Source: an uncultured Alphaproteobacteria bacterium (lineage in GTDB: Bacteria; Pseudomonadota; Alphaproteobacteria; Rs-D84). Taken from it: DNA of 64,000 nt. The DNA is taken from positions 264,936 to 328,935 of the forward strand of contig CATOOF010000001.1 in assembly GCA_951801825.1 (NCBI GenBank), in the 5' to 3' direction. How positions within the stretch are numbered: position 1 is the stretch's first letter; every line of letters starts with the position of its first letter. The notes under the pieces are model-generated. The model searched no databases and had not been told where the DNA came from. It saw only the letters and a program-made list of their open reading frames with translations. Positions 16,641 through 56,611 of the stretch are shown piece after piece. The translations under genes and the position numbers were made by a program.

Positions 16641-16680
16641 ATGTCATTGCGTGGGGGTGCTGTTGCAACCCAGTTAATAT

Positions 16681-16709
16681 TTGCAAATAGCAAAATAATC
16701 CTGTATAAT
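16681..16709 (+). promoter_or_regulatory. Promoter of structured RNA copy A
   Basis: TTGCAA (16681-16686), exactly 17 bases, TATAAT (16704-16709). Predicted start near 16716. It lies after the rpsO terminator, so copy A is an independent transcription unit. Confidence 0.7.
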
Positions 16710-16715
16710 TATCCT

Positions 16716-16887
16716 TGTATCAGCGTGTTGCGGATATGAGGCTTCTAAACCTCTTGATTCAGAGCGTACCAGCGTACGAAAATGGCTCCAAACTTGGTTG
16801 GAGGGGGTGAATAAATTGAATAAACCCGCTACTGCTCTGAAGGTAGTTTAGAACCTCCAGCCACCCTAAGTTTAGAGGGTGGTTTTT
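16716..16887 (+). ncRNA. Unrecognised structured RNA, copy A
   Basis: No open frame of note. Helices: P1 GAGG(C)TTCTAAA 16738-16749 with TTTAGAACCTC 16847-16857; P2 TTCAGAGC 16758-16765 with GCTCTGAA 16834-16841; P3 GTAC/GTAC 16766-16777; a hairpin CTCCAA/TTGGAG 16786-16803; P4 GGGT/ACCC 16805-16827 with the conserved A/T-rich loop ending ATTGAATAA. It ends in the terminator CCACCC/GGGTGG plus T5 (16861-16887). GGTTGGAGG (16796-16804) can also pair with the CCTCCAGCC just before the terminator, an alternative fold. The same architecture, with compensating base changes, is seen in copies B and C. Family unknown to me. Confidence 0.72.
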
Positions 16888-16902
16888 GCATTTATTTTTT
16901 TC

Positions 16903-16931
16903 TTGCGCTATTCCTATTGATGTGATATTAT
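16903..16931 (+). promoter_or_regulatory. Promoter of structured RNA copy B
   Basis: TTGCGC (16903-16908), 17 bases, TATTAT (16926-16931), starting 15 bases past the T-run of copy A. Predicted start near 16938. Confidence 0.6.
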
Positions 16932-16937
16932 TCATTT

Positions 16938-17144
16938 GCACTAGTGATACTAGTGTGAGGCGTCTAAACCTCTCTTTCAGAGCGTGCCCGAGGCACGTAA
17001 AATACTCTTACCATATCCACATGGTTGGAGGCCAGTGATATATAAAAATAAGCTGGGCTATTTTTCTCTGAAAGCTAGTTAGACCCTCCAACCGCCTAAA
17101 AATATCTTATATTTGTTAAGATTCAATTCTGCGGTTAATTTTTT
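16938..17144 (+). ncRNA. Unrecognised structured RNA, copy B
   Basis: Tandem second copy. A 5' hairpin CACTAGT-GAT-ACTAGTG (16939-16955) precedes P1 GAGG(C)GTCTAA 16957-16967 paired with TTAGACCCTC 17079-17088; P2 TTTCAGAG 16975-16982 with CTCTGAAA 17066-17073; P3 CGTGCC/GGCACG 16983-16997; ACCAT/ATGGT 17010-17025; P4 CCAG/CTGG 17032-17056. GGTTGGAGG (17023-17031) faces CCTCCAACC (17085-17093). The terminator arms are AACCGC 17090-17095 and GCGGTT 17131-17136, then T-run. Every helix differs in sequence from copy A but keeps pairing. No gene follows in this orientation, so it looks like a free-standing small RNA. Confidence 0.7.
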
Positions 17145-17149
17145 GTCTC

Positions 17150-17340
17150 CTGGGATGGAAGGCTCTCTCCTCCGTCTTTTGGCTGGCAAAAAATATGTAG
17201 GGGCCTGTTTTTCCGTCTTCTCATCTCCAATCAAAGAAACGGTGACGGGCCCCGACCTATAAACACGATGCGTTTTCTATATTCTGGCCCGGTGGCACTA
17301 TCCTCGGCTCTGGTGCATAGCCGGGCCGCATTGCAAAAAC
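17150..17340. other. Intergenic stretch with two GC-rich hairpins, possible further RNA
   Basis: No credible coding frame. Visible pairings: GGGGCC 17200-17205 with GGCCCC 17248-17253, and GGCCCGG 17286-17292 with CCGGGCC 17321-17327, the latter enclosing GCAC/GTGC and possibly bracketed by ATGC 17268/GCAT 17328. Strand, promoter and ends are not evident. I looked for 4.5S, tmRNA, RNase P and 6S landmarks and did not find convincing ones. Confidence 0.3.
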
Positions 17341-56158: not shown

Positions 56159-56190
56159 AAAATCCCCGCCACATGGCGGGGTGTTTTTTT
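56159..56190. terminator. Terminator of fabZ
   Basis: AATCCCCGCC-ACAT-GGCGGGGT then TTTTTTT, immediately past fabZ and before the convergent small HTH-like gene. Confidence 0.9.
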
Positions 56191-56434
56191 ATTTCGCCTC
56201 AATCCCGGGCCAGTTGCATTTTGCCACCCTGTCCGGTGATACAATCCGCGTAAACAGATATAATTGGTACGCGGATATCGGTGCCTGGGCGTGTTCAAAC
56301 GCCTGGTACAGCGACCAGCCGATATGCATATTACGCGCGATCCAGTATGGGCTGATGTCGCCATTTCTGCGTGCGCGCCGCATCAGGCGGCCGATGGTTT
56401 CGTAAAACTCATGCTCTGTTTTTATGTGTATCAT
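56189..56434 (-). CDS. Small HTH-like (XRE-type) protein behind RNA copy C
   Basis: 81 aa from ATG 56434, with GGAGCG upstream. Sequence IGRLMRRARRNGDISPYWIA, then MHIGWSLYQAFEHAQAPISA and YQLYLFTRIV follow the XRE/Cro helix-turn-helix order (helix, turn at GD, helix, 'E-A-P' after helix 4), though divergent. It may bind DNA. It lies 23 bases downstream of the terminator of structured RNA copy C in the same orientation, so read-through of the RNA would include it. Confidence 0.5.
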   Translation of the reverse strand: MIHIKTEHEFYETIGRLMRRARRNGDISPYWIARNMHIGWSLYQAFEHAQAPISAYQLYLFTRIVSPDRVAKCNWPGIEAK

Positions 56435-56457: not shown

Positions 56458-56611
56458 TTAAAAACACCGCCTTGATGAAGGGCGGTTGGAGGTTCAAAAC
56501 TACTACGAGAATAGCGTTGCTTATTCAATATATTCGCAACCCTCCAACCGGTTGTGGAGTTTAAAGCTCGTAAGAGGTTTTGAAGCCTCACATCGGTAAT
56601 CACCCGATGCA
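56458..56611 (-). ncRNA. Unrecognised structured RNA, copy C
   Basis: Third copy, on the minus strand. 5' hairpin CATCGG-GTGATTA-CCGATG (56608-56590), then P1 GAGG(C)TTCAAAA pairing with TTTTGAACCTC; P2 TACGAG with CTCGTA; a weaker inner hairpin TCCA/TGGA; P4 GTTGC/GCAAC enclosing GAATATATTGAATAA; and GGTTGGAGG facing CCTCCAACC. The terminator ACCGCC/GGCGGT (56486-56466) plus T-run follows. P1, P2 and P4 all have base changes on both sides that preserve pairing relative to copies A and B; the P3 hairpin is lost. It lies directly upstream of the small HTH-like gene. Confidence 0.72.

Follow-up and report, generated by a model that had tools for sequence, protein, structure and literature searches.

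The gap between rpsO and a TPR gene in the window (the whole 64,000-nucleotide stretch of DNA that was analysed) contains two tandem, strongly structured RNA units, both on the forward strand, which we refer to as A (16680–16888) and B (16903–17145). The TPR gene is convergent, and no convincing open reading frame was found in either unit. Direct reading of the sequence bears out the preliminary description, in which these were two non-coding RNAs each with its own promoter and terminator. The promoter of A (16680–16709, +) has a TTTGCA/TTGCAA -35 and a TATAAT -10 element (TTGCAA-17-TATAAT, 10/12 in a promoter scan), and TTTGCA..TATAAT is also present in sister units; the promoter of B (16903–16931, +; TTGCGC-17-TATTAT) scores 8/12, which is under the scan threshold, yet the same boxes are conserved at sister units that, like A and B, are orphans with no gene downstream. 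The intrinsic terminator of A (16859–16888, +) has a 9 bp stem at 16859–16884 and shares 4 nt with the 3' end of the core described below, and that of B (17090–17145, +) is longer and interrupted, with AACCGC..GCGGTT followed by AATTTTTT; both the promoter and the terminator of B are weak.

Unit A starts with a hairpin (16717–16738, +) that is evident in the sequence and has homologues in sister units, followed by a GAGG..CCTC hairpin (16738–16753, +) bearing the segment a1 (TTCTAAAC, 16743–16750), a b1 site (16758–16766, +; TTCAGAGCG) and an element u (16785–16793, +) able to base-pair with the 5' side of the core's closing stem. The core itself (16796–16862, +) is formed by the closing stem (16796–16804/16854–16862), a first hairpin (16805–16808/16824–16827) and a second hairpin (16829–16832/16843–16846), with a segment b' in the loop of the second hairpin (16833–16841) and a segment a' immediately 3' of it (16846–16853), all on the forward strand. 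Unit B is laid out in the same way, with a GAGG..CCTC hairpin (16957–16972, +) bearing a1 (GTCTAAAC), a b1 site (16974–16982, +; CTTTCAGAG) and a core (17023–17093, +) containing b' at 17066–17074 and a' at 17079–17084. The guides a' and b' match the leader segments a1 and b1 over 8 and 9 bp in A and over 6 and 9 bp in B, in which a' has lost one base (GTTAGAC versus TCTAAAC). The two units share a single guide specificity (a1 TCTAAAC, b1 TTCAGAG), and a genome search for the TCTAAAC..TTCAGAG pattern returned solely the A and B leaders and a complement inside A, with no third place. The A/B region differs from that of the nearest relative at one position in 706 bases, and the two are too alike to test selection.

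A conserved hairpin, nearly identical over 34 nt in its inner part (TTTACCGTCTTCTCATCTCCAATCA.AGAAACGGTA), is present at 17200–17253 (no strand assigned) and again at 17286–17327. Hairpins of this type lie 3' of orphan units in all seven places where they were found, and the loop has the sequence CTCCAA, complementary to the 5' strand of the core.

Seven places in the genome were recovered by a DNA search. From 13 copies we built a covariance model of the core, with its closing stem and two hairpins, which matches A with 62.1 bits, B with 63.4 bits, and the 897 kb host genome at 41 places in all; the units are not a product of chance. A third copy is present in the window, with its core at 56484–56549 on the reverse strand; it has a leader and a terminator and lies ahead of a small regulator-like gene whose 81-aa product (56189–56434, −) is similar to the small HTH proteins encoded next to sister units but has no Pfam match. 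Orphan units with the same 3' element as A and B are found at three further places in the genome. We also observed three tandem short units (C2:62468-62680) that have no leader and look like bare cores of the sRNA-Xcc1 type.

The core model matches 42 of 59 genomes in a sample of relatives, the host genome counted. Nearly all of these belong to the same genus, with up to 44 copies per genome, and fewer occur in the order's other families; of 289 genomes sampled across the class, 12 match. The named records carrying the core are mostly metagenome-assembled genomes from the gut, Candidatus Enterousia among them, and, as placed through its relatives, the host genome (0.9 Mb) is Ca. Enterousia-like. 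Candidatus Enterousia genomes are under or near 1 Mb (PMC12306168).

Compensatory changes, which had been advanced as evidence of selected structure, are abundant in the core. When 100 distinct cores taken from other genomes are aligned, 93.7% of the cells pair, a figure to be read with the alignment having been fitted to the core model, which favours pairing (slid controls are below 50%), and 16 of the 18 core pairs show two-sided changes, which 0 of 500 shuffles attained. The helices named in the preliminary description all exist, but the fold proposed from them combines leader–guide helices and core helices in one structure and lacks the family-defining closing stem (GGTTGGAGG/CCTCCAGCC). 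Its helix P1, GAGG/CCTC plus TTCTAAAC/GTTTAGAA (16738–16750 with 16846–16857), is real but is no part of the core, corresponding instead to an a1:a' leader–guide helix extended by GAGG/CCTC; P3 is a leader hairpin (16765–16778) and P4 is the first core hairpin. The closing stem and the GAGG–a1 helix are mutually exclusive and covary equally well.

Full units have a hairpin upstream of the core with a1 in its loop and then the b1 segment, with a1 complementary to a', 3' of the second core hairpin, and b1 complementary to b' in the loop of that hairpin. Guides fit their own leaders better than those of other units, both for the 41 units of the host genome (p<=5e-5) and for 158 clade units (mean -18.9 versus -13.9 kcal/mol, z -24, p<=5e-5), and likewise for 16 units in other alphaproteobacteria (p<=5e-5). 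The 5' strand of the closing stem (m) is also matched by u, the third segment upstream of the core (u:m, z -13), and consequently has two alternative partners.

The core commonly adjoins or overlaps an intrinsic terminator. In 139 of the 158 clade units a terminator starts in, or directly at, the final bases of the core, compared with 1.4 in shuffled sequences. A gene lies downstream in 119 of the 158, its start a median of 51 nt past the core, and the products are mostly small HTH regulators or secreted or surface proteins. By a simple hydropathy rule (and not a signal-peptide predictor), 87% of the downstream proteins of at least 100 aa have a hydrophobic N-terminus, compared with 37% of background ORFs (Fisher p 2e-13), and 24 of 57 short downstream proteins match a single HTH family. 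One clade unit precedes a Bro-N anti-repressor gene, plausibly a trace of phage origin. For the 21 gene-linked units of the host genome, matches of the guides to a2/b2 segments at the unit's own downstream ribosome site are not beyond chance (p 0.45), or p 0.057 when the closing strand is included; in other alphaproteobacteria a weak match is detected (p 0.004), and three units there precede short proteins with a pilin-like N-terminus of the GRSMVEMLG type. In seven host-genome units with GTCAGGAGG cores, located before genes for secreted Cys-rich proteins, the closing stem contains CAGGAG, which is also the downstream Shine–Dalgarno site in five of the seven.

The arrangement of these units is that of the C4 antisense RNA of phages P1/P7 (Rfam RF01695, in clan CL00128 with c4-a1b1, RF03163), an RNA switch by which phages control an immunity gene. 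In phage P1, a1 (TTGACAG) and b1 (GTTAGTGC) are followed by the core and then by a2/b2 at the start of icd, and the core carries b' in a hairpin loop with a' beside it. According to the summary in PMC5320573, RNase P cuts C4 at the closing-stem GG, and the RNA blocks the ribosome sites of its target. In the window family, as in C4, a1 and b1 precede a core made of a closing stem and two hairpins, b' occupies the second loop, a' is placed between the second hairpin and the closing strand, and the core begins with GG after a leader hairpin; a'/b' are complementary, in that order, to a1/b1 of the leader in the same transcript. It differs from C4 in having an intrinsic terminator directly after the core, in having no detectable a2/b2 at downstream genes in this genome (A and B have no gene, and p is 0.45 for the gene-linked units), and in the genes themselves, which encode HTH or secreted proteins, or are absent, in contrast to icd/ant. 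No RF01695 match to units of the window family was obtained in any search, relaxed limits included, the core model does not match phage P1 C4, megablast returned no phage record, and our literature search found no report of C4 in Alphaproteobacteria. In the phage P1 leader sequence examined (318–412 of that stretch), a sub-threshold match to Rfam isrK (35 bits) coincides in part with the c4 leader carrying a1/b1, which suggests that IsrK RNA is a C4-type leader.

No Rfam family is matched at the gathering cut-off in the A/B region, and only to this extent is the first impression that the RNA belongs to no known family right. The architecture is that of C4, and a relaxed search matches sRNA-Xcc1 (RF02221) to A over the full model (31.1 bits, E 0.002, against a gathering score of 53 bits), making it the nearest model; the best other host-genome copy seen scores 35.6 bits. 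Marginal matches to tmRNA and snoR27 were set aside, being on the opposite strand or having E >1. We retrieved twenty sRNA-Xcc1 loci from other members of the Pseudomonadota; four of them are matched weakly by our own core model (E 8e-5 to 5e-4). The two families share the closing stem (GGNNGGAGG), a first hairpin with an AAUA/AAUAA internal loop, the second hairpin, the leader layout at genomic loci, and these weak, reciprocal model matches.

RF02221 covers the core alone and is outside the C4 clan; at its loci a C4-type leader is conserved, along with targets downstream. Among the fetched loci, those read individually have the C4 layout, and in the 15 with enough flank for guide tests the guide matches both its own leader and its own downstream region (both p<=5e-5). 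Ten of the proteins encoded downstream were scanned, and eight of these proved to be Bro-N-like, KilA-N, P22_AR_N, Rha or SymE. On the sequence of its loci, then, sRNA-Xcc1 is C4-like; one paper in the literature we searched names both families, and we found no report there of a link between them. The tested Xcc1 loci retain a2/b2 and have no terminator overlapping the core (0 of 15), whereas units of the host genome share the leader part alone. Amplification of C4-type RNAs in a single genome has a parallel in the Group 1 C4-like sRNAs of Acinetobacter baumannii, with 21 copies in one genome and apparent RNase P-like processing at the closing-stem GG; those match Rfam C4, which the window family does not, and the parts of that report consulted mention no linked target genes or terminators of the kind seen here (PMC5320573).

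We consider it very likely, from these sequence comparisons, that A and B are orphan members of the C4-like antisense RNA family, on its sRNA-Xcc1 branch. The window family has a C4-like layout and is probably homologous to Xcc1, but because of the outcomes for a2/b2, RF01695 and the RF02221 cut-off it is filed in neither RF01695 nor RF02221. The main competing possibility, which is compatible with this assignment, is that A and B are decaying duplicates with no function, as the lack of a downstream gene and, in B, the one-base loss in a', the weak promoter and the interrupted terminator might indicate. We think this unlikely, as A keeps guide matches of 8 and 9 bp and B a 9 bp b match, each unit scores above 60 bits, and three more genomic sites have orphan units accompanied by this 3' element.

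Less probable still is a leader attenuator that senses a ligand or protein in the manner of a riboswitch, with A and B as gene-less remnants and the guide–leader helices as mere internal structure. The terminator overlap and the exclusive u:m and m:d helices do resemble an expression platform, a2/b2 is not significant in this genome, and the guides vary between copies yet match their own leaders. Such fast guide–leader co-variation is nevertheless unlike a ligand pocket, and homologues of the same layout match their own downstream gene and are organised like phage C4. That the units are an unrelated novel RNA, with the long GAGG–a1 helix as a static fold, appears very improbable: the helices first described are real and covary, and no Rfam family is matched at cut-off, but the closing stem and the second hairpin covary strongly and compete with that helix, and the order of elements matches C4 and Xcc1 loci. 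A mobile DNA repeat (MITE or REP-like) whose hairpins have no RNA function is scarcely credible despite the approximately 41 dispersed copies and the tandem arrays, one of them of three short units, as most units have a promoter before them, a terminator after them and a fixed distance to the start codon, and long-range guide–leader complementarity would be purposeless in a DNA hairpin. Among other identities, an integron attC site was rejected on inspection of the sequence, the core sites being wrongly oriented, and retron, IS605/omega RNA and CRISPR tracr were rejected as no partner protein was seen beside A/B or the other loci read.

As C4-like RNAs, A and B are probably a trans-acting, terminator-coupled variant, and a plausible scheme can be outlined. 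By analogy with phage C4, RNase P would cut at the G with which the closing stem begins on its 5' side and release a guide RNA of about 70 nt. The nascent leader would adopt one of two exclusive folds: in one, a1:a' and b1:b' form together with u:m; in the other, the closing stem m:d forms. Since the terminator stem overlaps d, the fold adopted would determine read-through into the downstream gene, and a free guide RNA made by that copy or another could tip the balance by binding a1/b1. Having no gene, A and B would act in trans alone, or serve as dosage copies; most likely they target each other or sites that match over a shorter length, or are kept as spares.

sRNA-Xcc1 has been investigated in plant pathogens, as an sRNA related to virulence. 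Because Xcc1 loci carry a leader and downstream targets, the RNA probably acts naturally on the neighbouring antirepressor or SymE gene. Genomes of less than 1 Mb are expected to shed regulation, and here a lineage with such a genome spends about 41 loci on one RNA device. It is conceivable, and we propose it tentatively, that in these genome-reduced gut alphaproteobacteria a phage immunity RNA has become a multi-copy, terminator-coupled family of switches over a regulon of secreted or surface proteins and small HTH regulators, with orphan tandem units of the A/B type giving trans cross-talk between loci. If the units work as proposed, an RNA of the phage lysis–lysogeny decision would have been adopted by common gut bacteria for programmable control of their surface proteins.
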